Below the pieces are notes generated by a model. That model was not told the origin of the DNA. It was given only the letters and a program-made list of their open reading frames with translations, and did not search any database. The position numbers and the translations under genes are program-made. From assembly GCA_001797815.1 (NCBI GenBank), contig MGQK01000106.1, forward strand, positions 1 to 27,507: a stretch of 27,507 nt of DNA, in the 5' to 3' direction. Positions 8,682-27,507 of this stretch are shown here, piece by piece. Position 1 is the first letter of the stretch, and the number at the start of each line of letters is the position of its first letter. The DNA comes from Deltaproteobacteria bacterium RBG_13_61_14 (lineage in GTDB: Bacteria; RBG-13-61-14).

Positions 8682-9180
8682 AATCAGGTTTCCCCTCTGC
8701 ATTTTTCAAATGATCCATTGGATTTACTAACAGCTTAGTATTCATGTCTTTTCGTTGATAGTGGAGATGAGGGCCAGAACTTTTGCCTGTATTACCCATT
8801 GAACCTATTTTATCCCCTGCTTTTACCTGCTGGCCCTCAATTACGTTGGCGTCCTTAAAATGACAGTATGTATCTTGATTATTATCATTGGTTTGTATAA
8901 TACAGCCATTACCACATCCTTTATTCGAATCACCAGAAGGATCATTATATACTTTAAGAACTTTTCCATCTGTAGCAGCTTTAATTTCAGTTCCTTCAGT
9001 TCCTGAAATATCAATAGCGTGTTTATTGTGTTGTTCGAATGTCTGTGAAATTTTTCTACCACCTTCACCAACTGGCCAAACTACCTTTTCTTTTTTAGAA
9101 GTTGACTTATTTGATTTTGAATTAGAGGGAGCTGGGGAAGGCTTCGAGGAAGGATCAATATCGGTGGTCTTTCCTTCCAA
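8671..9180 (-). CDS. M23 peptidase tip of orphan cassette A
   Basis: An open 3' part of a broken rhs cassette. The frame stays open up to the TGA at 9346-9348, but the first usable start is a TTG at 9180 without a good ribosome site. After a Ser/Lys/Pro linker, an M23/LytM domain follows: QTFEQHNKHAIDIS, a Gly-Thr turn, ATDGKV, Y-C-H-F, VKAGDKIGSMGNTG and GPHLHYQR. The HLH motif is intact. The first zinc motif is off-pattern: four residues before the Asp stands Lys, with His at -3 and -6. Function would be peptidoglycan endopeptidase. It is in frame with the rhs core 9346-9920 across the TGA. The domain is well supported; expression is doubtful. Confidence 0.6.
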   Translation of the reverse strand: MEGKTTDIDPSSKPSPAPSNSKSNKSTSKKEKVVWPVGEGGRKISQTFEQHNKHAIDISGTEGTEIKAATDGKVLKVYNDPSGDSNKGCGNGCIIQTNDNNQDTYCHFKDANVIEGQQVKAGDKIGSMGNTGKSSGPHLHYQRKDMNTKLLVNPMDHLKNAEGKPDYAK

Positions 9181-9345
9181 AGATTCAGCCGCTCTTTTAC
9201 CATCATCTTTTTGCGCGGATATATCCTCAGTAGGGCCCCCAGTCCCCTGGCTTTTTCCTGAGGCCGTTGCCTCCTTGCTGCCATCTCCAGCGGAATAAGC
9301 TAATCCAGCGTTGGCTCCTAAAAATCCTTCAATAAAAAATCCTGT

Positions 9346-9920
9346 TCAAAAACCCTTTTTCGCCCCCTCTTCCGCTCTGGTCTCACCAAAAATCTGGGGA
9401 ACAATCGCACCGATTACTGCCATTGGTAAACTAATAATAGCTACTGCTGCGAATATAATTGCTAAGGATATTGCCAAGGCTTCTAAAAAGGCATGTCCGG
9501 TCGGGTCCACGAAGCGCAAGGGGTTGTTGCCTACGTAAGTGTAGCGATTGCCGCCGCCGGCGCTGTCAGGTTGGATGAATCTGGCGATCTCAGGATCATA
9601 AAACCGCGATTGGTAAAACATCAAGCCAGTTGACTTGTCCTCCTCCTGCCCGGTATATCGCCGCTTGCTCTACGCAAACCAAGGCAAGATGAACGTGCTC
9701 AGCATCAACCCATCCAACACCTTACCGAACGGCAGATAGTTGATGTATTGAAAGATTGAACCATCTTTCAAAGTGATCAAGCGTGTCGAGCCAAGATTGA
9801 TCCTGGTGATAGTAGAGCACATCGCGCTCAAGGGTTTGTGCCCTGGCCGTTCGTGGGCCGAAAATCCTGCCTGACTTTTTAGCTTGCTTCAGATTTTCAA
9901 AGAACTACTGAGTCAATTCA
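9346..9920 (-). pseudogene. Broken rhs core of cassette A
   Basis: This is the core half of the same orphan cassette. Against the full gene it carries a GAG-to-TAG change (9905-9907, in ELTQ*FFENL), one extra base near 9795 in DQLGSTR, a CAG-to-TAG change (9670-9672, in FAQSKRR) and a TGG-to-TGA change (9346-9348, after AKKGF). Between these, core motifs remain readable: [43 protein letters not shown] and the hydrophobic helix pair. Homology begins at GAATTG (9914-9919), 16 nt after the stop of the partner gene of the full Rhs protein. It cannot be translated as one protein, so the locus is a silent or decayed cassette. Confidence 0.8.
9347..9510. repeat. 164-bp identical repeat, copy in cassette A
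   Basis: By eye identical to 7091-7254. Its left edge lies one base inside the TGG-to-TGA stop of cassette A, whereas cassette B reads on through a Trp. Confidence 0.75.
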
Positions 9921-9935
9921 TTTTACGATAAACAA

Positions 9936-10970
9936 TCAAGGTAAATACTTTGTAAAGTTATTTATCAAAATTATTTTATTTTTATTATTATCAATGACTC
10001 GAGCAAAGAGTCTATCTATTTCATAATCATAAATAATAGATGGACTTTTATAAGATGTTGGCTGATTTATAAAATAGCCAATATTTATCTTCTCTAATTT
10101 ATTCTCTGTTATATTATAGCAATATAAAGATTCTGGACCATTAATATTTTCTATTGGATTAGCAAGAATTAGAATAGATTCTTTTTCAGGTAATGGTATA
10201 AAGGGGCAATCTCCTCCAACACATATATTATCAATACGTATTTTTGAAATAACCCCCCTTTTTTCTCTATCAAATATAACAAAATCTAAATAGCCACAAC
10301 CTCCCGCACAATTGTTTTCGCAAATTCTAATTAGCAACTTATCTTTTCCAAAGCTATTTAAACACCATATATTAAAATCAGAATATATTTTATGAGAACC
10401 ACTATCGTTTAATATATATACATCTGATTTTCCATTGGAATTTATATAGTGATAATAAACATTATTATCAATAAATTTAATACTTATAAAATTAGTGCTT
10501 TCTGCAATAATATGATTATTTAAACTAATAAAATACCTATTAATGTGTTTTGTTTTATCGTATAGATTATAAGTATAGTATATATTATCATTATGATAAA
10601 TAATATCGATTATATTTCCCAATTGGTCAATCTTTAATTTGATTACTCTTTTAGGATATTCTGCCTTTTGGAAATTATAGCTAAATATAGAATCATCATA
10701 TATATAATAAATGTAATCATCTTTAAAAAAGATGGGAAAGAGGGTATCGTAAGCATTAGATTTAATTTGAATTGGAAGTTCTTTTATTACCTTGTTATTA
10801 GTAATATTATAAATAATAATTTTATTAGACAAACTAACAGCAATATCCGATCTGGGAAAGATATGAAAACATTCATATATCTCATTTAAAGGTTTACTGT
10901 CACAATTAGTTTGAATCACAAAAACTTGAAGTATGAGTAACAATAAGCAATAATGTCTAAGAGTATTCAT
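9936..10970 (-). CDS. Exported putative immunity protein for the main Rhs toxin
   Basis: A 344-aa AT-rich gene that starts 8 nt after the stop of the full-length rhs gene. The ATG at 10970 was chosen because it opens a clean signal sequence (MNTLRHYCLLLLILQVFVIQTNC), with GAGGTGA about 9 nt upstream. The Cys ending this segment could be lipidated, though the lipobox (QTNC) is poor. The body has many short 'NGK', 'YDDS' and 'ITNNK' strand-turn repeats like a beta-propeller. It has extra cysteines near ENNCAGGCGY and CVGGDC that could form disulfides in the periplasm. I see no clear sequence kinship with the two partners of the M23 tips. By position it is the likely immunity protein for the amidase-like tip; this is inferred, not shown. 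Confidence 0.6.
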   Translation of the reverse strand: MNTLRHYCLLLLILQVFVIQTNCDSKPLNEIYECFHIFPRSDIAVSLSNKIIIYNITNNKVIKELPIQIKSNAYDTLFPIFFKDDYIYYIYDDSIFSYNFQKAEYPKRVIKLKIDQLGNIIDIIYHNDNIYYTYNLYDKTKHINRYFISLNNHIIAESTNFISIKFIDNNVYYHYINSNGKSDVYILNDSGSHKIYSDFNIWCLNSFGKDKLLIRICENNCAGGCGYLDFVIFDREKRGVISKIRIDNICVGGDCPFIPLPEKESILILANPIENINGPESLYCYNITENKLEKINIGYFINQPTSYKSPSIIYDYEIDRLFARVIDNNKNKIILINNFTKYLP

Positions 10971-10978
10971 TTCAAGAT

Positions 10979-13900
10979 TCACCTCGGAGTAAAATATTGA
11001 GGAGCATGTCTCCCAAAATGCCAAGACGCATAATTAATATTTGGCCGTGTTGAATTAATTCCCAGAACATTAGTGGATTGAGAATAAATGACCGGATTAC
11101 CCCCTGCAGGATAATGTTGAGGGTAGTGGCCAGATCTTGGAAGGGAGTTTAAATCAAAGCCAGGGACAACAATGCCTATATGTCCAACGCCATTAGGATC
11201 AAAATTTCTAAATATAGCAAGGACAAAATTTCCATTATTAGCATGTTGTTGTGCTTCTGCTCCATTCCTTAATTGTCGCCAACGAGAATTAGGTGCACTA
11301 ACTATATCATGAATATCATTAGATGTTCCACTTAGATCATTCCTTTGTGGAATTTGTGCTAAATTAGCTACATGCCGAGCTGCATCACTGCAGTTGTTTA
11401 TAGGAAGAGGTTCACTAACTTCTATTGCATTTCTTATGTTAGTTGCCGATTGATTTAATTGTGGGCCTGGAGCAGGCACTGGCGCAAGAGCGGGTGCAGC
11501 AACAGGTGCTGGAGCCTGAACCGGAGCTGGTGCTGTTAAGTCAACAGCCCAATCCAAAGGGATTTGTTCCTCAACCCCGATCTCGAAATCAATATCGCCT
11601 TCCGCGGGGGACGGCTGACTAGTGTCCTCTTTGGGAGCTGGATTGGTATCCTTTGCAGCTTGTTGGTCAGCCTGATTTCTTTTGGAAAAAGCATAAGCCG
11701 GTTCCATCACTCTTCCTATAGCTAATCCTACGCTCATTCCAATGCCCGCTCCGATCAGCGCTCCTTTCCAGCGATCCTTTTGACCAAATATTTGTGGAAA
11801 AATAGCTCCAATTATCCCGCCAATGATTGCGCCAGTAATAGCTCCTATAACCTGGAATAGGAAATGTCCGCTCGGATCATTAGCGCCAAGAGGATTGTTG
11901 GCTACATAAGAATACCGATTGCCTGCTAAAGCTGAATCGGGTTGTATGAACCGCGCGATCTCAGGATCGTAAAATCTGCTTTGATAAAACATCAACCCGC
12001 TGGACTTGTCCTCCTCCTGGCCCGTGTATCGCCGCTTGCTCTGAGCAAAGAAAGGCAACACAAAAACGCTCAAGATCAGGCCATCCAAAATCTTGCCGAA
12101 GGGAAGGTAGTTGATGTATTGATAAACACTGCCATCCTTCAAGGTGATCAGCCGCGTGCTCCCAAGCTGGTCCTGATGATAGTAAAGCACGTCACGCTCC
12201 AGGACTTGCGCTTTGGCCGCTCTCGGGCCAAACAGCTTCCCCGCCTTCTTCGCCTGTTTCAGATTTTCAAAGAACTCTTTGGTTAACTCGCTAAAGGGAA
12301 TGTTAGCAGAACCGTAAGTGGCTGTCAAGAGTTTTTTGAGGGCCTGGTAGAGGACCTGTTTGTGCATGGGGTTTTGGGAGGAGAATTCGAGGAGCGGGGC
12401 GGGGGAGAACTCCCAGATCATTACCACGAGGAAGAGGAGGATGAAGGAGTTGCGGAGCGGGTGGCGGCGGAAGCCGGGGCCGGAGAAGACGCGGAAAGAG
12501 AGGAGAAGAATTAAACACAAAGGCACAAAGAGCACCAAGAGGGTAAAAGTGATTTCTTTGGCGCTGGCGATGGTGAGGCGGTCGGGGATGGAGGAGCAGC
12601 CGAGCCCGGTGTGATGCCAGTCGGTGATGGACTCGTAGATGTCGCCAATGGCCTTGCCGCCGGCGAGGACGTGCTTGACCATGTAAACCGGCTGGTTGGA
12701 GGCGAGTTTCAGCTCGTAGTAGGCATTGACCCGGAAGGAGCCTTCCACGTCCCCGTGCTCGTCAATCCGGCCCTCGAACAAGCGGCCGCCGCCCAGGTGA
12801 TAGAAGGAATCCGAGACTCGCGTCCCGGTCCCGTCCAGGACCGCGACCATCCGGTCGTAGGCGTCGTAGAGGTAGGTATGGGCCTTGGGGCTGGCCGGAT
12901 CAATGTCCGAGATTTTGGTGTCCATGGCGCCGTTGTGATTGTAGCCGGCGGAGAAGACCGGGAGGCCGTTTTTCATGATCTCGGTGACGGCATGAGGGCG
13001 CAGGGCATTGTTCGAGTAGGTATAGGTAAGCAGGTCGGTGCTTGAGCCGTTGGGATCGTCAAAGGTGCGGGAAAGAATATTGCCGGATTTGTTGTAGGCG
13101 TAGTATTTGGTCCCGTATCCGGACCAGAGCAGGCCGCCTTCGATGCGGAAAGCATCCGGGGTGGTGGGAGGAGCGGATTGGTAAGCGCTTTCCAGGCGGT
13201 TGAGGTAGTCGTAGGTAAAATGCTGGTGTCCGAAGCGGGGATCAAGGATTTCGGTGAGGTTGTTGGTGAGTCGGCCCTGGTCATCGAGGTAGGAAAAGTT
13301 ATTGCGGAAATACTCCTGCCCCTGCGCGTTGATCGTCCGGATGGTTTTTAAGCGGAAATGCTTTTGCCAGGATTCTGTCTGGTCGTAGTAGATAAAATTG
13401 TCCTTCACGCCATTGCCATATTGTATTTGCGTGGTCTGGCCGAGGGAGTTGTAGCCGGGTTCGGTGTCGGTCCCGAAGAGCGCATAGACCGTGGCGGCGT
13501 CCCGCACCCGCTTGACCGCGCCGGTGTTGTCATAGTCGTAGTTCATGACCGAGCCGTCGGGATAGGTAAGCTGGGTCAGCTGGCCGGAGAGGGTGTATTG
13601 GTAGGAAGTGGTCCAGCGGAGGGACTCGATCAGGAAGTGCTCGGAGGCGGTGCGGCCGAGGGAGTCGTATTGATAGAGGTATTGGAGGAAGGGATCGCCG
13701 GAGTTGTTATTCCAGACCGCGGTGAGGGCGCCGAGGGTATTGTAGTTGGCGCCGGGGTTGTAGCTCACGTCAGCGGGGTAGGTGTCATAGCTGAAGTGGA
13801 TGGTGGAGTAGAAGGAATCAACATATTGGTCCCAGGCAGGAATGCCCGGGCCCCCTGGAGGAGGATCGGGTGAAGCCAGCGGCTCGAGGCAGTCGTTGGG

Positions 13901-16900
13901 GGTATCGCCGGGCAGGTGGAGGCCGTTCTTGAGGTCGTACTGGCGGACCACGCGGTTGAGGGCGTCGAAGTCGGAGCAGGTTCTGATATCATCGCCGGGA
14001 ATCCCGGTCTGGCCGGCCACGTCCACCTGGCATTTGAGGTTCCCCCGGTCATCGTATTCATAGCGCCACTCGCCCATGTCCGGGTCATTCATCCAGATTT
14101 TCCGGCCCAGGGAATCATATTCGATGTCGGAGACCTCTCCTTCAGGACCGATGGTGTGGATCAGGTTGTTGAGGCCATCGTAAAAGTATCGAGTGATCAC
14201 GTCTTGAGTTTGATCGGTGGGGTGGAGATTGATGGATTGGGTGAGGTTGCCGTAGATGTCGGTTTCGGTGCGGGTTTGCTTGCCGTCAATGCCGGTCACG
14301 GTTTTGGCCAGGGCCTCGTAGTCGGAGGTGACGGAGGTGCCGTCGGAGAGGACGGTTTTGATGACGCGGTCGCGGACGTCGTAGAAGGCTTCGGTGTCAG
14401 GCCAGGAGGTGTCAGGGGGAGTTGGCTGGGTCAATTCAGTTTCAAAGCCGGCAGGGATGATAAGAAAGTAGGGCAGCGAAGACCGGGTGACACGGCCGAG
14501 GCCGTCGTAATCGGTATCGGTGACGGTCTGGCGGTAGGTATTGAGGGTTTCCGGTCCTTCGGACTTGGACTGGAGGGCATGGCCGGCGCCGTCGTAGAAA
14601 GTGATGGCCATGGTGAACTGGTTGTCGTCCAGATAGGACCAAGTCTCGATAGAGGTGGGATAGGTATCGAGGTGGTAGAAGGTCTGGGAGGTGGTGCGTT
14701 CCTGGGTTTCGCCGTAGGGGATGACCGCGGTCCTGACGGTCCGGCCGAAGGCATCGAGATCGGTCAGAGATTGGGTGGTGGGATCGCCCTCATTGAGGAA
14801 GGGGCCTTTGCTGTAGATGGCTTTGCCGAAGCGGAGGTCGTATTGGGTATAAGCCTTGTGGCCCAAAGCATTGGTAGCAACGAGGGGGAACATATGCAAA
14901 TCTTGTTCAAACTGGATGAATTTTTCTACGCCCCGATCAAGCCAGTGCAAGAGATTCCCATATTGGTCCATATCGGCTTGATAGTTGGGAACCTCGAACA
15001 TGTTTTCCCACTGAGGAGTGGCGGAGATGGGAGTGGAAGGATCGGTATCGGTGACCAGGGCCTCAATCCTGGTGAGGACGCCTTGATCGGGAAGCGCGCC
15101 CAGAGTTGAGCTGCCATCGTAGTAGTAGCGACGCTCGGTGAGTTTGCTGGCGGCTTCATCCCAGCCCGGAACCACGGTGGACCAGGTGCGGACGATGCGT
15201 TGCTGCCAGGTGGTGGGGTTGTTGGCGAACTCGGTCTTGACGTAGCGCTCGTCGCCGGAGACAGCGGGTTCGCCTTCGTTGACGGAGTAGAGATCGGTTT
15301 GGAGGCCGGATGATGTGTCGAAATCGTAGGAGTTGGCGGAGCGGGTATGGACGGAGGTGTTGTTGCCGTCGTTGAGATAGGAGTCGGTCTGGGAGTTGTA
15401 GATGAAGTGGATGTCAATGTCGCCATCGAGGATGTCTTCATCCAGGATGGGTCCGTATAAGAACGTCCAATCGGACCAGGCTTTTTCGGAGCGGGAGAGG
15501 AGGTTGCCCTGGCCGTCGTAAGAGCGTTGCTCGGCGGTGAGGCCGAGGAAGAGAGGTTCCCAGATGTCCCGTTCTTGAAGGAAGAAGGTGTCGGAGTAGC
15601 GGTAATCCTGGACCAAGCCTTGATTGGGGTCATCGTAAGAGATGGTGGAGCGGGTGAGGCCGAAGCCGCGGAACTCGGAGGCCAGATGATCGCCAGGGTC
15701 CAGATACGGGTCAAGCCCGTCGTTCCATCCGGAATAATGGTAGCCGCCGCAATAAGTGAGAGATTGTTCAGACTCCCAGGTAGTTGGGTCGTTATCGAAG
15801 CTGACGGAGACGGAATCGAGGACCGACATGACGTAGGGGAGGAATGAGGAAGGGGCATCGGTGATAGCATCGCAGGCGCCTCCTCTATCCAGAGGCATTT
15901 CGTCTCTGGTAGATGGTTTGTAATGAAAAGTTTGCAGCCCGCCAGTGCCGTTGTTAATAGATCTAACAAGACCATTACTAAATTTGCTTTGATTGATCGC
16001 GGCCTGGTAAGTTACAACGTTCGGGCCGGTAATAGAGTTTGGATAATAATAGCCATCGCCATCGAAGACGTCCGCAAGCGCGTCACCATTGATATCCCCA
16101 AGGATTGGGCCGCCTTGCTGGCAACCTATGGCCTCGGTAACGACACAAGCTTCAAAAAGACATATGTAAATATAAGTGCATACACTGAAATAACCTTCAG
16201 GAATACCATCCCAATAGCCAGACGATATATCTTGATTCCATCCGGTAGGCCCTCCGAGGTAAAGATACGAGTCTTGATAAGAAGGTGGTGCACAATATGG
16301 TGAAGGGAATGGCAGTATATAGACGCAGTAGATTTTCCCTTGCTTTTGTAGGATATCTAAATAACCATCTCCATTGATATCTAAAAACCGCACACCTAGG
16401 TCAGAATATTGACCACTTTCCCCTTTATACACAAGATCAATTGGCATAGTAAAAGGATTTTCCGTGCAAGGAGCACCAGGGAAGCATATAAGATTATCAA
16501 ACTTCTTTCCTGTATTCAGAAACGTTTTACGCTCGTGCTCATAATTAGAATCTGGTCTCCAAATGCCAATGACCAGGTCCGGCAGTCCATCAGCGTTTAC
16601 ATCTAAAAGTTGTGCGCCATTTTGAGAAAAATAACGATACTCACCCGGTACGCTATTACTAAAATAATAGCAGGGGAGACCATCCTGACATATTATATCC
16701 TTTTCCCATTTCCAAATGGTTGTCACTCCATTGGGTAAGGTGAAAGGTTTTCCCTGGTTGATAAATACATAGACTGATCCGTTATCTGCTTTTATTACAT
16801 CAGTCAAACCGTCACCGTTAAGATCTGCGAACCGAACCGGAGTTGCTGCACTCGTATCACTCTTCAGAGACATATCCACGGAGAACCACTGATTCGAGAG

Positions 16901-18409
16901 GTTGTGAGTGTAACAGTTCAAGCCATACTCTGGCCGCGATTGCCAGCCCCCTCCGTTATTAATGTAAGCTTTGTGTATACCCCCTGACTCTTGGATAATA
17001 TCAGCTAAACCGTCGCCATTGAGGTCAATTATACTCGTTCCTCTGTAATTCGTGCAGTAAGTACTGCTGCAACTAGCGAATATTAAATCGGCTCCCAACG
17101 CCCTTAACGAAAAAGTCCAGGGGGCATTCACGCCTGAGTTTGGGTCCATATGCCAGCCGGTGCCATCTGCTTTATTGAGAAAGACTTCCTGTCTAGGAGG
17201 AGGAGAAAAAAATCCCTCGGAAACGGCTACCACTACATCATTCCAGCCATCGCCATTCACATCGGCTAAAACCGCTCTTCCACTTTGTTTATGGTCGTCA
17301 TCATTAGCAGGAGAGAAGAAAGGGGTAGGCAACATATTGCCAGTTTGTGTGGCAAAGCCTAGGTTGGAAGATTCATTTTGGTTATAGGTAAAGGTGGTAG
17401 CGGGCAAGGATGATCCTCCCGCACTGATTTTAATGGACGAAAGAAATATATCAGCAACGCTAGTCTGGTTATAGGATAGGAGATATATAGTAGCTCCGGT
17501 TTCTTCAGATGAGACTATTATCCGAGCCAAGCGAGAACCGATCACTGCAAGATATCCTGCACGACCTTGAATAATGGTGTCGTTGGGATCGCTGCTATAA
17601 GGAGCGAGTTCGAAATAAATGTGATAATAGGGATCTAGGGGTGAAGAGCCAGAACCGCGCCAACCGGTATAATAAATATCACTAGGCAGAAGAACTCCAC
17701 TAATCTTGTAATCGGTCGAGAGATACGGATAATACTGAACAGCCATATAATTGCCATAGACATCTTGAAGCGCCACCAAATACCATTCAAAGGTAGTTGA
17801 AAAGATTCGAGAAACGGCGGGATCACCAGTGCGTGCATTTTCATTGGATGCAGTATTAGGGTCATCCCCGAAATAATATTGAGTTCCTTGTAGATCTTTT
17901 ACAATCCAACGGTTGTTGACTTCGTCCTTGATAATTTTCATAAAACCCGATTCGAGCTTAAGACGATAGACTTGGCCTGTATATCCATAAACAGTTTCGG
18001 TCGTCAGGGTGGGAACCAATTCAGCGCCGTTGTAAAGAAAGATATCTCTATCGGTATAGGTGGGCGTGCCATATTTAAGACTTCTGCTAATAGTACCAAG
18101 CCCGGTGAGGGACCATCCGCGGCCAACCCAGCTTGCTCCCACCCGGCTGTTATAGACCAAAGCCAGTGAGGGTTGGATACCCCGACGGCCGGCCGGGACA
18201 GAAATTGGATAGCTGTTGCTAAGAGACCCGGTAAAAAGATCACCCACCGATTGAGCAGTTCCTGAACCGATATCGGGAGTCGGAGCTTTGTTAAAGCTGT
18301 TCGGGTCAGTGGTGGGAAATTGAATTTGAGCGATAACCACCTGAGCGAAAGCAAAGCAGATCAATCCCAGCGCTAGACCAAGAAAATTGTTTCGGCTTCC
18401 AGTCGCCAT
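10979..18409 (-). CDS. Sec-exported SpvB/FG-GAP/YD-repeat Rhs toxin with papain-like amidase tip
   Basis: A 2476-aa polymorphic toxin. The ATG at 18409 follows GGAGG at 5 nt. Order: signal peptide (GLALGLICFAFAQVVIA), SpvB-like domain (about 45-300, VPAGRRGIQPSLALVYNS), six FG-GAP-like D-x-N-x-D-G loops (about 380-780), a TcdB-middle-like part, many YD repeats (about 1100-1900), two membrane helices (about 1943-2005), the Rhs core (YYHQDQLGSTR to NNPLGANDPSGH, about 2070-2180), a Gly-rich hydrophobic pair, a Pro-Ala linker and the tip. In the last 139 residues NNCSDAARHVA (Cys about 2340) and GVGHIGIVVPG (His about 2410) fit a papain-fold NlpC/P60- or CHAP-like amidase. Known Rhs proteins form a shell around the tip; here the tip probably cuts peptidoglycan. 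Domains upstream of the tip are firm, the tip call moderate. Confidence 0.85.
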   Translation of the reverse strand: MATGSRNNFLGLALGLICFAFAQVVIAQIQFPTTDPNSFNKAPTPDIGSGTAQSVGDLFTGSLSNSYPISVPAGRRGIQPSLALVYNSRVGASWVGRGWSLTGLGTISRSLKYGTPTYTDRDIFLYNGAELVPTLTTETVYGYTGQVYRLKLESGFMKIIKDEVNNRWIVKDLQGTQYYFGDDPNTASNENARTGDPAVSRIFSTTFEWYLVALQDVYGNYMAVQYYPYLSTDYKISGVLLPSDIYYTGWRGSGSSPLDPYYHIYFELAPYSSDPNDTIIQGRAGYLAVIGSRLARIIVSSEETGATIYLLSYNQTSVADIFLSSIKISAGGSSLPATTFTYNQNESSNLGFATQTGNMLPTPFFSPANDDDHKQSGRAVLADVNGDGWNDVVVAVSEGFFSPPPRQEVFLNKADGTGWHMDPNSGVNAPWTFSLRALGADLIFASCSSTYCTNYRGTSIIDLNGDGLADIIQESGGIHKAYINNGGGWQSRPEYGLNCYTHNLSNQWFSVDMSLKSDTSAATPVRFADLNGDGLTDVIKADNGSVYVFINQGKPFTLPNGVTTIWKWEKDIICQDGLPCYYFSNSVPGEYRYFSQNGAQLLDVNADGLPDLVIGIWRPDSNYEHERKTFLNTGKKFDNLICFPGAPCTENPFTMPIDLVYKGESGQYSDLGVRFLDINGDGYLDILQKQGKIYCVYILPFPSPYCAPPSYQDSYLYLGGPTGWNQDISSGYWDGIPEGYFSVCTYIYICLFEACVVTEAIGCQQGGPILGDINGDALADVFDGDGYYYPNSITGPNVVTYQAAINQSKFSNGLVRSINNGTGGLQTFHYKPSTRDEMPLDRGGACDAITDAPSSFLPYVMSVLDSVSVSFDNDPTTWESEQSLTYCGGYHYSGWNDGLDPYLDPGDHLASEFRGFGLTRSTISYDDPNQGLVQDYRYSDTFFLQERDIWEPLFLGLTAEQRSYDGQGNLLSRSEKAWSDWTFLYGPILDEDILDGDIDIHFIYNSQTDSYLNDGNNTSVHTRSANSYDFDTSSGLQTDLYSVNEGEPAVSGDERYVKTEFANNPTTWQQRIVRTWSTVVPGWDEAASKLTERRYYYDGSSTLGALPDQGVLTRIEALVTDTDPSTPISATPQWENMFEVPNYQADMDQYGNLLHWLDRGVEKFIQFEQDLHMFPLVATNALGHKAYTQYDLRFGKAIYSKGPFLNEGDPTTQSLTDLDAFGRTVRTAVIPYGETQERTTSQTFYHLDTYPTSIETWSYLDDNQFTMAITFYDGAGHALQSKSEGPETLNTYRQTVTDTDYDGLGRVTRSSLPYFLIIPAGFETELTQPTPPDTSWPDTEAFYDVRDRVIKTVLSDGTSVTSDYEALAKTVTGIDGKQTRTETDIYGNLTQSINLHPTDQTQDVITRYFYDGLNNLIHTIGPEGEVSDIEYDSLGRKIWMNDPDMGEWRYEYDDRGNLKCQVDVAGQTGIPGDDIRTCSDFDALNRVVRQYDLKNGLHLPGDTPNDCLEPLASPDPPPGGPGIPAWDQYVDSFYSTIHFSYDTYPADVSYNPGANYNTLGALTAVWNNNSGDPFLQYLYQYDSLGRTASEHFLIESLRWTTSYQYTLSGQLTQLTYPDGSVMNYDYDNTGAVKRVRDAATVYALFGTDTEPGYNSLGQTTQIQYGNGVKDNFIYYDQTESWQKHFRLKTIRTINAQGQEYFRNNFSYLDDQGRLTNNLTEILDPRFGHQHFTYDYLNRLESAYQSAPPTTPDAFRIEGGLLWSGYGTKYYAYNKSGNILSRTFDDPNGSSTDLLTYTYSNNALRPHAVTEIMKNGLPVFSAGYNHNGAMDTKISDIDPASPKAHTYLYDAYDRMVAVLDGTGTRVSDSFYHLGGGRLFEGRIDEHGDVEGSFRVNAYYELKLASNQPVYMVKHVLAGGKAIGDIYESITDWHHTGLGCSSIPDRLTIASAKEITFTLLVLFVPLCLILLLSFRVFSGPGFRRHPLRNSFILLFLVVMIWEFSPAPLLEFSSQNPMHKQVLYQALKKLLTATYGSANIPFSELTKEFFENLKQAKKAGKLFGPRAAKAQVLERDVLYYHQDQLGSTRLITLKDGSVYQYINYLPFGKILDGLILSVFVLPFFAQSKRRYTGQEEDKSSGLMFYQSRFYDPEIARFIQPDSALAGNRYSYVANNPLGANDPSGHFLFQVIGAITGAIIGGIIGAIFPQIFGQKDRWKGALIGAGIGMSVGLAIGRVMEPAYAFSKRNQADQQAAKDTNPAPKEDTSQPSPAEGDIDFEIGVEEQIPLDWAVDLTAPAPVQAPAPVAAPALAPVPAPGPQLNQSATNIRNAIEVSEPLPINNCSDAARHVANLAQIPQRNDLSGTSNDIHDIVSAPNSRWRQLRNGAEAQQHANNGNFVLAIFRNFDPNGVGHIGIVVPGFDLNSLPRSGHYPQHYPAGGNPVIYSQSTNVLGINSTRPNINYASWHFGRHAPQYFTPR

Positions 18410-18424
18410 GTTTTCCTCCAAGCC

Positions 18425-23171: not shown

Positions 23172-23527
23172 GAAAAATATTATTAGCGCAAATTTGTCTC
23201 TAAAATCAGCAGGTTAGTCCAGGTATTTTATAGAGATTGGGGTAGCGTTTAGCTGTATTTTCCTCCGCTAAACCCTGAGCTCACACCTCTCCCCTGCTAC
23301 TGCCGCCAATTCAAAAACTCAAATTTACGAAGGATTATCACCCAACCTCAAGGTGTAAGAACTGCACGTGACATTGGTAAATCTTGGAGCCACCCAAATG
23401 TAGACCGTGCCGCTATCGTTTCCCGCGCAGAGGGGCATCCTGGAGAGTCTAGGGATATCTTTTAGGTTGGCTTGAGAGCGATTACAGAAACAGTTGTCTG
23501 AGCTTTTCTTTATCGCGCCCTGCCAGC
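23172..23527. other. Gene-free interval between the two minus-strand operons
   Basis: No gene is supported here. A small inverted repeat (GTTTAGC at 23247-23253 with GCTAAAC at 23267-23273) has no T tract. The interval separates the terminator of the conjugation operon from the Rhs promoter. Confidence 0.5.
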
Positions 23528-23568: not shown

Positions 23569-24222
23569 TCAAGGACTGAGGAAGGATTCCACGGTTTTGT
23601 AGAGCATGTCGGTGAAGGAAAACTCCTGGGTGGGGGGAGAGAGCTTAATGAGGAAGCTGCCCTTGTCCTGGGCCAGAATCGGGTCCTGTGACAAGAGCGT
23701 AAAGACGAAACGGGACCTGGGCTCGACGGTGTAGATTTTGAGGAAGTTCTCCCTCGTGTCCCACACGACTTTGGCCCGATCCAGGCTGGTCAAGACCTGG
23801 TGGAACTTGGGCAACGGGAAGAAGAAGGAGCCCTTCCCGTTTTGAAGGCCGAGGAACGGGGCGGGATGAAGCTGGGTGAACTGGCAGAGGCTGGCATGGG
23901 AGAGTTCAATTCCGCGGGAACCGTGCCTGGCCTCCCGAGCAATCGTCACGGCGATGGCTTCGGCCTGCCGGAGTTTATCGCGGAATTTCTCCTCGGCTTT
24001 GGCCTTCAGGCAGCTTTCCAGATAGGGCGTAACGATTGCGAGCTTCTCTTCCGCTTTCGCCCGCTCCCACTTTTTGCGGTTCTCTGGACTGACCTGAAGC
24101 TTGACCAGCGCTTCCTCATCCACCTCCTCCAAAAAGTTCCCGATCACCTCCGGCCCCAGGCTCCCCTCCATCACCCGGGCGAATTTCTTCAGCCGGTTGT
24201 ATTCGCGCAATAGCTTCCTCAC
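23569..24222 (-). CDS. Unknown protein, 217 aa, last gene of the conjugation operon
   Basis: Not recognised. The GTG at 24222 is preferred because it is preceded by GGAGGTGAAAGCC, the same ribosome-site context as the 42-aa gene; the upstream TTG at 24237 lies before that site. The N-terminal half (to about residue 105) is charged and helical, with stretches such as NRKKWERAKAEEKLA and EEKFRDKLRQAEAIA, probably a coiled coil. The C-terminal half is mixed alpha/beta (GKGSFFFPLPKFHQVL, RSRFVFTLLSQDP). It follows the previous stop by 5 nt and is followed by the operon terminator. It may be an adaptor or target of the conjugation enzymes; this is only context. Confidence 0.65.
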   Translation of the reverse strand: MRKLLREYNRLKKFARVMEGSLGPEVIGNFLEEVDEEALVKLQVSPENRKKWERAKAEEKLAIVTPYLESCLKAKAEEKFRDKLRQAEAIAVTIAREARHGSRGIELSHASLCQFTQLHPAPFLGLQNGKGSFFFPLPKFHQVLTSLDRAKVVWDTRENFLKIYTVEPRSRFVFTLLSQDPILAQDKGSFLIKLSPPTQEFSFTDMLYKTVESFLSP

Positions 24223-24227
24223 GGCTT

Positions 24228-24656
24228 TCACCTCCAATCCTTCTCCCAGGGCCGGTCGAAGTAATAGTCGTATTCCTCGGGACTCAGGCCCTGGTGCATC
24301 TGCTCATACCAACCGGAAACTTCCCGCGCCACTTCTTTCCGGTCGCCCCAGTTAAGCTCAAAGGCATTGACCCACTTCTCAAAGACCTTCTGCCCCTTGT
24401 AGAAGACCACGATCCCGCTGGCCTCAGGGTATTGGGGATAGACCCGGATGATCGGGTTCTCGTCGAAAAATCCCTCTTCCTTGAGCGCCAGCACTACGAT
24501 TTCGATCATCTCCCTGAGCCGCGCTCCCCATTTTTCCAGACACGCCACCAGTTTTTGAGGCTCGCCTGGATACCAGATGGGCTCCAACGGCGGCCAATTT
24601 TCAAAAATCCTTTCCAGCTCGACCAGGGCCCGAGCCAGGAAATTCTCCTTGGTCAT
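24228..24656 (-). CDS. Unknown protein, 142 aa, in the conjugation operon
   Basis: Not recognised. The ATG at 24656 follows GGAGG by 5 nt; a GTG six bases earlier is less likely because it would overlap the ribosome site. The protein is rich in Trp, Glu and aromatic residues. It starts with helices (ENFLARALVELERIFENW), continues with a strand region (NPIIRVYPQYPEASGIVVFYKG) and ends in an acidic aromatic tail (EEYDYYFDRPWEKDWR). There is no signal peptide and no C-terminal Gly-Gly. It sits between the 42-aa gene and the 217-aa gene, 5 nt from the latter, so it is co-expressed with the E2/JAB/E1 set. A compact alpha/beta fold, possibly a modified ubiquitin-like protein or substrate, cannot be excluded. 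Confidence 0.65.
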   Translation of the reverse strand: MTKENFLARALVELERIFENWPPLEPIWYPGEPQKLVACLEKWGARLREMIEIVVLALKEEGFFDENPIIRVYPQYPEASGIVVFYKGQKVFEKWVNAFELNWGDRKEVAREVSGWYEQMHQGLSPEEYDYYFDRPWEKDWR

Positions 24657-24725
24657 TTTCACCTCCGATAGAAAAGAGCGGGGGCCGACGGCCAGCCCCC
24701 ACTCCGGGTTAGGTCCATTCGGGAA

Positions 24726-24854
24726 TTAGTTCCCGTTGCTGCGGCGTTGTTTCATGTACTCGATCATGCTCTTGATCCCGGCTACCGCCAGGGAAACTCC
24801 CAAATACGCGATCGACCGGCGAACATCCATGTCCCTGATAATTTTCGACATCAT
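24726..24854 (-). CDS. Small protein, 42 aa, between the E1 gene and the unknown genes
   Basis: A short gene with one of the best ribosome sites of the window (AAAGGAGGTGAAAGCC before the ATG pair). The product begins MMSKIIRDMDVRRS, has a mildly hydrophobic stretch (IAYLGVSLAVAGI) and ends in the basic KQRRSNGN. It could be a small membrane-associated or amphipathic peptide. It is too short for a ubiquitin fold. It starts 18 nt after the E1 stop. Removal of the last residue would expose a C-terminal Gly, which is a curiosity only. Function unknown. Confidence 0.6.
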   Translation of the reverse strand: MMSKIIRDMDVRRSIAYLGVSLAVAGIKSMIEYMKQRRSNGN

Positions 24855-24872
24855 GGCTTTCACCTCCTTTCT

Positions 24873-25514
24873 TTAGGACGGAATGATCATCCCCAGATGA
24901 AAATCGAGGATGACCTCTTTGGGAAAAGTTTCCTGCGAAATGAATTTCTTGACCACCTGGCCGACCCAGGCGGACAATCCGAGCACGGTGTAAATGATGG
25001 CCCGGCGGGTGCACGGCTCGCGTAAGGCTTCGGTCGAAGGATACAGGCTCCGGTCATAGACTTCCGCATCGGCCAGGGGATTCACCGCGTAGATCCGGGC
25101 CACTTCCGCGCCCATCCTCGTGTCAATGAACAGCGGGACGTGGATGTTCCGTTTCACCTGGTGCCAGATCTTCTTCCGCTCATCCATGCTGTCCACGGCC
25201 ACGATCACGATGCCTTGCAACACCTGGTCGGTAAACTTTTCGTTTCGGACCTTGATCTCGATGCCGGTGTAGTCCTTGATGATCTCTTGCAGGGCGATGA
25301 CCTTGCTCTTGCCCAGATCCTGTATCCGGTAGAACTGGTTCGGCAGGTTGTGCGGCGCGATGGTGTCGGGATCAAAGACCGTGAGGTCGCTCGCTCCCAT
25401 TTTGGCCAAAGCCAAAGCGGTAAAGGACCCCACCGCCCCCGCGCCGATGATCGTGATCGGGATTTTCAGCCTCTCCAGGTTCACCAGGTCCAGTTGTCGC
25501 GTGTATTCAATCAT
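24873..25514 (-). CDS. ThiF/E1-like activating enzyme
   Basis: A 213-aa adenylating enzyme of the ThiF/MoeB/E1 superfamily, which activates the C-terminus of a ubiquitin-like or sulfur-carrier protein with ATP. The nucleotide loop GAGAVGS is at 24-30, followed by D48-P-D50, NLPNQFYR (56-63), a Lys pair at 69-71 and the DSMDER segment (108-113). Cys168 in REPCTRRAIIYT stands where prokaryotic relatives often carry a conserved Cys, and may form the thioester. Its length fits a minimal single-domain E1. Its ATG overlaps the JAB stop by 8 bp (ATGATTGA), so the two are translationally coupled. With E2-like and JAB proteins in the same operon, protein conjugation is more likely than thiamin or molybdopterin synthesis. 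Confidence 0.85.
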   Translation of the reverse strand: MIEYTRQLDLVNLERLKIPITIIGAGAVGSFTALALAKMGASDLTVFDPDTIAPHNLPNQFYRIQDLGKSKVIALQEIIKDYTGIEIKVRNEKFTDQVLQGIVIVAVDSMDERKKIWHQVKRNIHVPLFIDTRMGAEVARIYAVNPLADAEVYDRSLYPSTEALREPCTRRAIIYTVLGLSAWVGQVVKKFISQETFPKEVILDFHLGMIIPS

Positions 25515-26196
25515 AGGGCCATTCCTCCAATCCTTGATCCGACAGTCCTTCCTCGCTCAAAAAGTCCTCCGCTTCCGGCCAGCTCAGTTCGCCCTTGCAA
25601 AAGGCATTGATGATTTCTTCCCGGCTCGGGTCGGACGGAGCATAGGGAAACATCTGGCCATCGGAGAAGGAGACCCCCTCCTTAACCCGCTCGTCAAACA
25701 ACTGCTTGCAAACCTCCCGCTGGCCGAACTCCGTCAGGAGGACCTCGGTGGGAACCTCGTCCAGTCCGAGGCGAAGGGGCTGGTAAAAGTCCACCCGGCT
25801 TCGCATCTGGCCGGCCTTGTTGATCACGGTGCTGATGAAGTAGTCCTTGGGCCGGAACCGCTGGATGGTGGCCTGATCCGTGCCGGACCAGAACACCTGC
25901 ATGGTCCCGTGCGAGTGGAACCAGAATTTCAACCGGGCTGGATCGTGGCCCTGCTTTTCCACCTCCATCATCAGCTTAGCCACGTCTTCCGCCTCGATGC
26001 TGGTCTGGGCCTCGGAAGAGCTCTGGTAGGGCAGGAAGATCTCCGTGATCAGGAAGCCCTGCAGGTTACCGTTAAGGATCTCCTCGACCATGCCCAACCC
26101 GCTGATCTCGCCCTTGGCCATCTCGACCCACAGGTCCAACTGCTCCTTGGCCTTGGCATCAATCCAGACCGTGAGCTTTTCCACTTCCACCTTCAT
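25507..26196 (-). CDS. JAB/MPN (JAMM) metalloprotease, isopeptidase-like
   Basis: A 229-aa zinc protease of the JAB/MPN family, which cuts ubiquitin-like tails or conjugates. E30 in the start of the domain and HSHGTMQVFWSGTD (94-107) give the full JAMM motif: H94-x-H96, seven residues, S104, two residues, D107. The domain spans about 1-130; the remaining 100 residues are acidic and unknown (ending GLEEWPYD). The ATG at 26196 was chosen over the upstream frame start because GAGGAGGAG precedes it and it overlaps the E2-like stop (ATGA). The gene also overlaps the E1 gene. Together they form an E2-JAB-E1 order like bacterial ubiquitin-type operons. Confidence 0.9.
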   Translation of the reverse strand: MKVEVEKLTVWIDAKAKEQLDLWVEMAKGEISGLGMVEEILNGNLQGFLITEIFLPYQSSSEAQTSIEAEDVAKLMMEVEKQGHDPARLKFWFHSHGTMQVFWSGTDQATIQRFRPKDYFISTVINKAGQMRSRVDFYQPLRLGLDEVPTEVLLTEFGQREVCKQLFDERVKEGVSFSDGQMFPYAPSDPSREEIINAFCKGELSWPEAEDFLSEEGLSDQGLEEWPYD

Positions 26197-27507
26197 GACT
26201 CCTCCTCCTCTCTCCGATGGTGGCAATTCTCCACCGGGCAGTTGACACAATCCTCCCGGGTTACCGACTCATGGCACTCGGCCTCGTCGCCGGCAAAGGG
26301 ACAGTTCTCTTGATCGCACTCCACGCACTGCCAGGGACTATGCTCCACCCGGCATTCTTCCACCGCCTGCTGCTGAAACCGGCAATGGCTGACGTTGCAG
26401 CCGATGCATTCCGAGAGCGAGGAGTCTTCAAAGCACCGGCTTTGCGCGTCCTCGTTATAGCGGCAATCACTGTCCCCGCAGCGGACACACTCCTGAGCAG
26501 TGGCGCTCTCGTAACATTCCTCGAAATGTTCCCGCTGGTCCTCGTCCGCATCAAAGTCCGGGTCCCAGTAGTCAATCTTGAGATAGGGATTATTCGGGTT
26601 GTAGCTCTTCAGGAACTCGATCATCACGGTCACCAGGCTCACGTAGTCGCCCTCGGCTAGGAGCTTGGTCACGCCGGGCGCGAGGTTGCCCAGGCAGGGG
26701 ATGCCGTCGGAACTGACATGGGGGTGGGGATAATCCTTGGGCGCCGGTCCTCGATACATGTAAATCCGCAGGTCCTGGTCCCGGAAGCGCACCGTGATCT
26801 GGAACTGGCCCAGGTCATAGTTAATCCCCCGATGGGAGAGGCTAATCTCCTGGGTGAATGCGTCGAGTTTGTGTTCGGTAAAGCTGATTTTTTCCAGGGC
26901 GTGCGGCACCAGGTTCATCAGGTTCTTGTATTCGGCCACGAACTTCTTCAGCCTTTGGGTGCGGGTGTGTTCCTGGTGCCAGGCGATCATCTGCCGCAGC
27001 TCGTCATTCTTGCGATAGAGCTCCAATAGCTCGGCGATCTTGTCCTGGATCAGCTCCTCGTTCTCGCTCACGTCCTTTTCCGCCCGTTCGATTCGCGTCT
27101 GATCCGCCCCGACCCGATAACGGGCATACTGGCTTGCTTCGGGCCAGGTGTAGTTGCGGATGGATTGCACCAGCTTAGGGAGGGCGGTGTCAAAGACCGG
27201 TCCCCAAAGAGTATTCAGGAGCCGGCCAAGGTCCTGGTGGCCATTGCCCGAGATCAGGCCCGGATCAAAGACCAGGAACAGGTAGCGGTCCTTGAGCACG
27301 GCCAGGGGTTGATCATGGGCTAGGATCATCTCGCCCTCGGGAAAATAGACATCGCCCTCGACCAGGAACTTGTCCTCGCCCACGCGGAGCTCAAAGCCGG
27401 CCGACGCTTCGGCAGAATGGGCGATGATCTCTACCTGGGGACAAAACGGCTCGGGCTGGAACTCGCGGAGATCCTCGGTCTGGTAGCGGATCGGGATTTC
27501 GTGTTTG
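26193..27507 (-). CDS. E2-like (UBC) protein with four tandem Cys4 repeats, 5' end outside
   Basis: The frame stays open to the window edge, so the true start is outside; residues below are counted from the GTG at 27383. A coiled coil lies near 96-135. Residues about 190-275 are UBC/E2-like: a beta meander, then YPHPHVSSDGIPCLG with H220-P-H222 in place of the usual HPN and Cys230 where E2 enzymes hold the thioester, and a final helix plus NPNNPYL. From 290 to 387 come four copies of C-x8-C-x2-C-x4-C, 16 cysteines in about 26-residue units, likely zinc knuckles. The tail is acidic. E2 proteins pass a ubiquitin-like protein from E1 to a target; the cysteine part may bind targets or act like an E3. 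The E2 call is strong for its Cys context; the repeat role is unknown. Confidence 0.8.
   Translation of the reverse strand, partial: KHEIPIRYQTEDLREFQPEPFCPQVEIIAHSAEASAGFELRVGEDKFLVEGDVYFPEGEMILAHDQPLAVLKDRYLFLVFDPGLISGNGHQDLGRLLNTLWGPVFDTALPKLVQSIRNYTWPEASQYARYRVGADQTRIERAEKDVSENEELIQDKIAELLELYRKNDELRQMIAWHQEHTRTQRLKKFVAEYKNLMNLVPHALEKISFTEHKLDAFTQEISLSHRGINYDLGQFQITVRFRDQDLRIYMYRGPAPKDYPHPHVSSDGIPCLGNLAPGVTKLLAEGDYVSLVTVMIEFLKSYNPNNPYLKIDYWDPDFDADEDQREHFEECYESATAQECVRCGDSDCRYNEDAQSRCFEDSSLSECIGCNVSHCRFQQQAVEECRVEHSPWQCVECDQENCPFAGDEAECHESVTREDCVNCPVENCHHRREEEES

Follow-up and report, generated by a model that had tools for sequence, protein, structure and literature searches.

A predicted mobile cassette for ubiquitin-like protein conjugation, combining a minimal ThiF-type E1 with an E2 that ends in a Cys-rich tail

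Introduction

Small operons that combine E1-, E2- and JAB-type enzymes with a ubiquitin-like protein (Ubl) have been described from bacteria and archaea. The Bil system encodes its components separately, and BilA is trimmed by BilC (PMC11354881). In Caldiarchaeum, the Rpn11 JAMM enzyme trims its pro-ubiquitin (PMC5654768), and related operons were reported by Burroughs 2011 from Actinobacteria, Planctomycetes, and Acidobacteria, as cited in PMC4197634. The operon types 6a-6e of Iyer et al. 2006 include Cap2/Cap3 of the cyclic-oligonucleotide-based anti-phage signaling system (CBASS) and PRTRC-like operons (PMC1779556).

The DNA analyzed here is a stretch of 27,507 nucleotides from Deltaproteobacteria bacterium RBG_13_61_14, designated as the window. 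It spans positions 1 to 27,507 of contig C106 (MGQK01000106.1; 122,811 bp), and the contig numbering is the same as the window numbering. Near the end of the window, an E2-like protein, a JAB/JAMM metallopeptidase, and a ThiF-type E1 are encoded, all on the minus strand. The first-pass annotation, made from the letters of the window, assigned these genes to a bacterial ubiquitin-like pathway, and the present analysis supports this assignment. They are interpreted, with a probability of roughly 0.85, as parts of a complete and self-contained cassette for Ubl conjugation and deconjugation; this figure covers the conjugation, not a role in defence.

Gene organization and the ubiquitin-like protein

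The E2-like gene (26193-27506) overlaps the JAB gene (25507-26196, with the ATG at 26196) by 4 bp at 26193-26196, and the JAB gene overlaps the E1 gene (24873-25514) by 8 bp at 25507-25514, in agreement with the first-pass coordinates. The E2-like reading frame is open at the edge of the window. The window ends in a run of 26 N, which represents an assembly gap; the contig continues beyond it, and the N-terminus of the E2-like protein lies across the gap.

No product ending in Gly-Gly had been recognized in the first reading, which is correct within the window. The lack of a Ubl is not a property of the system, since a Ubl gene is present just past the gap and Ubl genes are present at other loci. 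As one of the earlier proposals had placed it, the modifier lies beyond the 5' side of the window: extension of the sequence past 27507 revealed its gene at C106:27640-27846, 133 bases past the window end and on the same strand as the other three genes. The 142-aa and 217-aa proteins, proposed as alternative modifiers, do not occur at any other locus and are discarded for this role. The product of C106:27640-27846 is MKVRVLKLGHAAKEVEVGAGTTVEEALQASGIEQDGYSVTVNGVGANLSASTREGDVIALVPKVEGGN, a 68-aa protein of the MoaD/ThiS/SAMP-type beta-grasp, which ends with VPKVEGGN; thus, its C-terminus EGGN is Gly-Gly plus one residue. The protein scores 32.5 bits against Pfam ThiS, above the cutoff of 22.5, and the best solved match of the Ubl-family profile is archaeal SAMP2 in its complex with JAMM1 (5lda, 4.6e-9).

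The tails past the last Gly-Gly or Gly-Ala differ among the Ubls; they are N, I, R, C, A, GW, GQ, DQ, CRS, LV, KS, longer sequences, or none. This free variation is expected if the JAB trims these residues, and it agrees with the JAMM trimming in Caldiarchaeum (PMC5654768) and in Bil (PMC11354881).

JAB and E1 proteins

The JAB protein (229 aa) contains Glu30 and the motif HSH-x7-S-x2-D. HxHx7SxxD is present in every copy, the upstream Glu is present in all copies aligned, and the JAB-family profile is nearest to Rpn11-type enzymes. The E1 protein (213 aa) is minimal, with a single adenylation domain; it matches Pfam ThiF at 1.7e-16, and ThiF is the only domain found confidently by Pfam in the window cassette. 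The ATP-site residues and Cys-Thr at 168-169 are conserved in the E1 family, whose profile is nearest to ThiF and MccB and also matches Citrobacter BubCD at 2.5e-6.

The proximity of the Ubl to ThiS, MoaD, and SAMP2, together with that of the E1 to ThiF and MccB, would fit a sulfur-carrier pathway, in which a ThiS/MoaD-like carrier is activated by a ThiF/MoeB-like enzyme and trimmed by JAB for the synthesis of a cofactor or natural product. JAB genes accompanied by ThiS-like genes are known in siderophore operons (PMC1779556). However, the cassette always includes an E2 of UBC fold with a conserved Cys, and no recurrent rhodanese, sulfurtransferase, or biosynthetic genes were seen beside it. 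The sulfur-carrier pathway is thus considered quite improbable. The first reading had named thiamin, molybdopterin, or cysteine synthesis genes in the flanks as a sign against conjugation; no such genes (thi/moa/cys) were found in C106:22001-42000, and the flanks hold instead EtfA/EtfB-like, FAD-dehydrogenase, and GlcD-like genes, recognized by eye beyond a 77-aa open reading frame (ORF).

The E2-like protein

The E2-like protein begins with an N-terminal region and a long helix; these are followed by the UBC core, which contains HPH...Cys271-x-Gly, and by Cys-rich repeats at the C-terminus, in which C-x8-C-x2-C-x4-C appears four times. Cys271 in the full reading is the residue called Cys230 in the first-pass annotation, which counted from a later start. 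Loss of this residue in homologs had been named there as another sign against the pathway; the Cys of Cys-x-Gly after HPH is conserved in every E2 copy read, bacterial as well as viral. One of the three HPH residues varies in a few copies.

By sequence, no significant match to the E2-like protein was found in Pfam, and by profile no significant match was found among the solved structures (PDB). AlphaFold models were generated for the whole protein and for the core alone (predicted local distance difference test, pLDDT, 84; predicted template modeling score, pTM, 0.78), and were compared with solved structures. With VIA-align, all of the 50 structures listed for the core model are E2 enzymes, with Z 7.5-8.6 over 113-135 residues, whereas models without a clear match usually drop to Z 4-5 at rank 50. 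The UBC fold of the predicted core is thus well supported. The top matches with Foldseek include Tsg101-UEV and UbcH7. The best solved match of the tail, whose model is poor, is the B-box of Midline-1, which is not significant (E = 0.66). Tails with other Cys patterns are present in the G159 and G139 phyla.

Distribution across bacteria

Among 97 other sampled genomes, one contains a relative of the E2; there, E2, JAB, and E1 are followed by a Ubl ending with KIKGG, and a sister Nitrospinae genome has the same four genes. Follow-up searches used profiles. They revealed the E2 in 11 of the 39 genomes of the G159 phylum, with up to four copies each, and in 10 of the 294 genomes of the G139 phylum, with up to six copies; a few of these matches are weak. 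Another 28 loci were fetched and scanned with profiles of all four proteins. All four genes are present at 31 of the 33 bacterial loci, which include the window locus and represent four phyla, and at the remaining two a contig end cuts the E1 in one and the Ubl in the other. The gene order is Ubl-E2-JAB-E1 throughout, except for two Nitrospinae genomes, in which the Ubl is placed after the E1. Because E2, JAB, and E1 are adjacent at 32 further loci from three other phyla, the arrangement in the window is not a chance one.

The system is rare and patchy, since a broader E2 profile matched only 5 of 386 spread genomes. The E2 is absent from both other genomes examined in the phylum of the window. 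The search of genome contigs with the window E2 sequence alone gave no match, and that with an E2 alignment, whose patterns were poorly chosen, recovered the Nitrospinae copy only. Plasmid searches with the E1 yielded partial, general ThiF matches only. A 1241-aa ORF from G132 showed a weak match to the E2 (E = 0.007) and was disregarded. In the G139 phylum (L018, L068-L071, L073, L075, L076, L078-L081), a conserved gene set on the same strand is located upstream of the Ubl, and includes DUF3150-like, Ycf46-like AAA ATPase, TOPRIM-like, and DUF1257-like genes (named by eye) and small proteins.

Association with integrated elements

Nine loci of the G159 phylum have a tyrosine integrase gene upstream of the operon, and nine have a tRNA or tmRNA gene within the fetched stretch. 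In G159 (L017 2666-18713), the 3' end of tRNA-Asp recurs ~16 kb away as a 57-bp exact repeat, and the repeats enclose the integrase and the operon. This ~16-kb stretch is therefore an integrated element. Its cargo comprises the integrase, an AAA/sigma54-type regulator-like gene, Ubl-E2-JAB-E1, and two large secreted-looking proteins. Repeats resembling att sites were found at one of the nine tRNA/tmRNA loci within the fetched stretches, and the other elements may extend beyond them.

At the window locus, fragments of one integrase family are present on both sides of the operon. One is a 40-bp tyrosine-integrase fragment (23372-23411, minus strand), which is 97.5% identical to C106:40353-40392, and another is found on the 5' side of the operon (C106:28482-28636). 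A partial copy at C106:40072-40404 matches Pfam Phage_integrase. The fragments are remnants, and the order of the pieces is unlike one simple insertion, which suggests more than one insertion event. The three partial copies surround the operon together with the neighboring electron-transfer gene block.

Copies in phages and other viral sequences

Searches with E1 profiles matched 14 contigs in IMG/VR, and all four genes were found in 12 of them; viral scans with two E2 profiles gave no matches. A terminase match is present in 6 of the 14 contigs, three of them above the cutoff. In the viral contig L082, endolysin and ribonucleotide reductase families are nearby. The E1 tree places the window E1, with moderate support, in a group with three viral E1s and the two from Nitrospinae. 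In two viral contigs, the cassette is adjoined by an additional E2-like gene (L083 4864-5640; L089 5624-6829 / 8902-10260).

The annotated phages matching the E1 are crAss-like phages, Flavobacterium phages, and others; most of these E1s carry the label 'thiamine biosynthesis protein'. In four of the phages (crAss001, cr111_1, bajarodcaudo virus 1, and Fpv3), a gene matching the JAB profile (1e-6 to 1e-8) directly precedes the E1, and the two genes ahead of this JAB were not detected by the E2 and Ubl profiles. In crAss001 and Fpv3, these two genes occupy the positions of the E2 and the Ubl and have a Cys following an MHSH motif and a stretch reading KSGA/KSGG; they are plausible as E2 and Ubl, as candidates only. 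An adjacent pair of a JAB-like metalloprotease and a ThiF-type E1 is seen in L102 (crAss001 NC_049977.1 Gp76-Gp79), L103, L104, and L105; in these phages, a long C-terminal extension follows the candidate Ubl part, and the cassettes adjoin primase, uracil-DNA glycosylase, and exonuclease genes. A literature search, with subscription journals and preprints lying outside its reach, returned no paper describing phage-borne cassettes of this kind. It is tentatively proposed that large phages, including the human-gut crAss-like phages, encode the full cassette and conjugate the Ubl to host proteins or their own, and that bacterial copies, including that of the window, are element-borne or captured relatives.

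The carriage by integrated elements and phages suggests that the cassette most likely acts in conflicts between phages, mobile elements, and their hosts. Anti-phage defence by the cassette is unproven, and since phage genomes also contain it, a role in conflict could run in either direction. As a Bil-type defence, the cassette would tag phage proteins and protect the host, as might be expected from the same four activities in the order of the Bil names (PMC11354881) and from a distribution that is patchy, multi-copy, and element-borne. However, large phages themselves carry the cassette, PADLOC gives general E1-E2 similarity only, and no defence genes were seen in the immediate flanks of the window copy. 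Defence is thus a serious possibility that falls somewhat short of even odds. About equally likely is a function serving the phage or element, in which host proteins or its own are modified for replication, or host defence is countered, and the chromosomal copies are remnants of elements. The twelve viral contigs with all four genes, the E1-JAB pairs beside the phage genes noted above, the integrase fragments flanking the window copy, and the clustering of the window E1 with viral E1s are consistent with this function, while bacterial copies that are intact and sometimes numerous suggest selection in the host. These two roles are both sub-readings of the conjugation cassette, and their likelihoods are not to be summed to one.

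Proposed mechanism

The catalytic steps, the targets, and the biological role are inferred from the gene set, the conserved active-site motifs, the predicted E2 fold, and the mobile context of the relatives. The JAB would cut the Ubl precursor behind Gly67 (EGG|N), taking off the last residue and exposing Gly-Gly. The minimal ThiF-type E1 would adenylate the carboxyl end of the Ubl and probably hold it as a thioester on Cys168, from which it may be transferred to Cys271 of the E2. The E2 would attach the Ubl to targets; its Cys-rich tail, which probably binds zinc, would serve as an adaptor within the enzyme, either for substrates or in the manner of an E3. The JAB may also reverse the conjugation. 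The cassette was probably spread by integrative elements and phages.

Several points weigh against conjugation. For the E2 model, Foldseek gives weak E-values. The Nitrospinae copies lack the Cys-rich tail, and in the window protein its four repeats are poorly modelled. The Ubl is equally near to sulfur carriers and modifiers, the E1 family lacks an equivalent of MoeB Arg73 where it would normally be found (Asn59 here), and the junction of the Ubl and E2 genes spans the assembly gap. Conjugation by these proteins is a prediction from sequence and modelled fold.

If the conjugation cassette is confirmed, its four small separate genes would be among the simplest ubiquitin-type pathways to rebuild, and the ThiF-size E1 with a sulfur-carrier-like modifier would be near to what the ancestor of the ubiquitin system may have resembled. 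The presence on integrated elements and phages makes the purpose of bacterial ubiquitylation directly testable. The crAss-like phage genes annotated as 'thiamine biosynthesis protein ThiF' and 'metalloprotease' may be components of a system that tags proteins.

Neighboring genes

Downstream of the E1 on the minus strand is a ~42-aa ORF (24726-24854), with a probable transmembrane segment by eye and the C-terminus SNGN. The end of this protein with NGN and that of the Ubl with GGN may be a coincidence or a shared tail. According to the first-pass annotation, this gene and two further genes follow up to one terminator. The genes do follow, a 142-aa ORF at 24228-24656 and a 217-aa ORF at 23569-24222, both on the minus strand and with no assigned function, but a second strong, terminator-like hairpin (24675-24705, minus strand) is located between the 42-aa and 142-aa genes; the latter two genes may thus form a separate or attenuated unit. 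The three proteins are lineage-specific, and it is uncertain whether those of 142 aa and 217 aa are members of the system. The 77-aa ORF (C106:27843-28076, minus strand) overlaps the Ubl gene on its 5' side. No credible relatives of the 42-, 142-, 217-, and 77-aa proteins were found at other cassette loci. Among the ORFs neighboring the operon, no CD-NTase or metallo-beta-lactamase (MBL) gene was seen. Elsewhere in the window (10979-18421, minus strand), a 2480-aa ORF with SpvB, TcdB-middle, and RHS-repeat domains encodes a Tc/RHS-type large protein.

Comparison with known systems

The cassette shares with Bil the separate genes for Ubl, E2, JAB, and E1, a Ubl that, here by prediction, needs C-terminal trimming, and the gene order A-B-C-D, if the Bil order is taken from its naming (PMC11354881). 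It is not a member of Bil. BilA has two tandem Ubl domains, whereas the Ubl here is a single-domain protein of 68 aa; BilD is composed of inactive and active adenylation domains and a Cys domain, whereas the E1 here contains one ThiF domain in 213 aa. BilB is characterized by CEHH (Cys, +6 Glu, +8 His, +13 His), while Pro, Val, and Ala are found at those offsets from Cys271. Here, HPH precedes the E2 Cys, and the E2 has the long helix and the Cys-rich tail.

The ubiquitin operon of Caldiarchaeum and the related bacterial operons of Burroughs 2011 are similar in their compact Ub-E1-E2 genes, the Rpn11-type JAMM exposing Gly-Gly, and the sporadic distribution (PMC5654768, PMC4197634). In contrast to these operons, no separate RING gene is present here and the Cys-rich domain is fused to the E2; the E1 is a much smaller ThiF-type protein and the Ubl is MoaD-like. 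Parts of the cassette family may already be described in Burroughs 2011.

The types 6a-6e have E1, E2-like, and JAB domains in common with the cassette, often with a small Ubl, but their E1 is typically fused to E2 or JAB, or accompanied by a nucleotidyltransferase or metallo-beta-lactamase gene, whereas here the four genes are separate (PMC1779556). The 6A-MBL_cap2_3 model scores 50.3 bits against a cutoff of 320, and the NCBIfam models of PRTRC ThiF and PRTRC A score 42.2 against 144.75 bits and 11.8 against 101.8 bits, respectively. By score or gene structure, the cassette is not Cap2/Cap3, 6A-MBL, or PRTRC.

With ThiF-ThiS, MoeB-MoaD, and the archaeal SAMP-UbaA-JAMM1, the cassette shares the size of the E1 and the fold of the Ubl, while it differs from them in lacking sulfur and cofactor genes and in always including an E2. 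In each of the sequence tests applied, the cassette behaves as a ubiquitin pathway would. It is best read as a complete mobile cassette whose gene order resembles that of Bil, whose E1 is a minimal ThiF-type protein, and whose E2 carries a Cys-rich tail.

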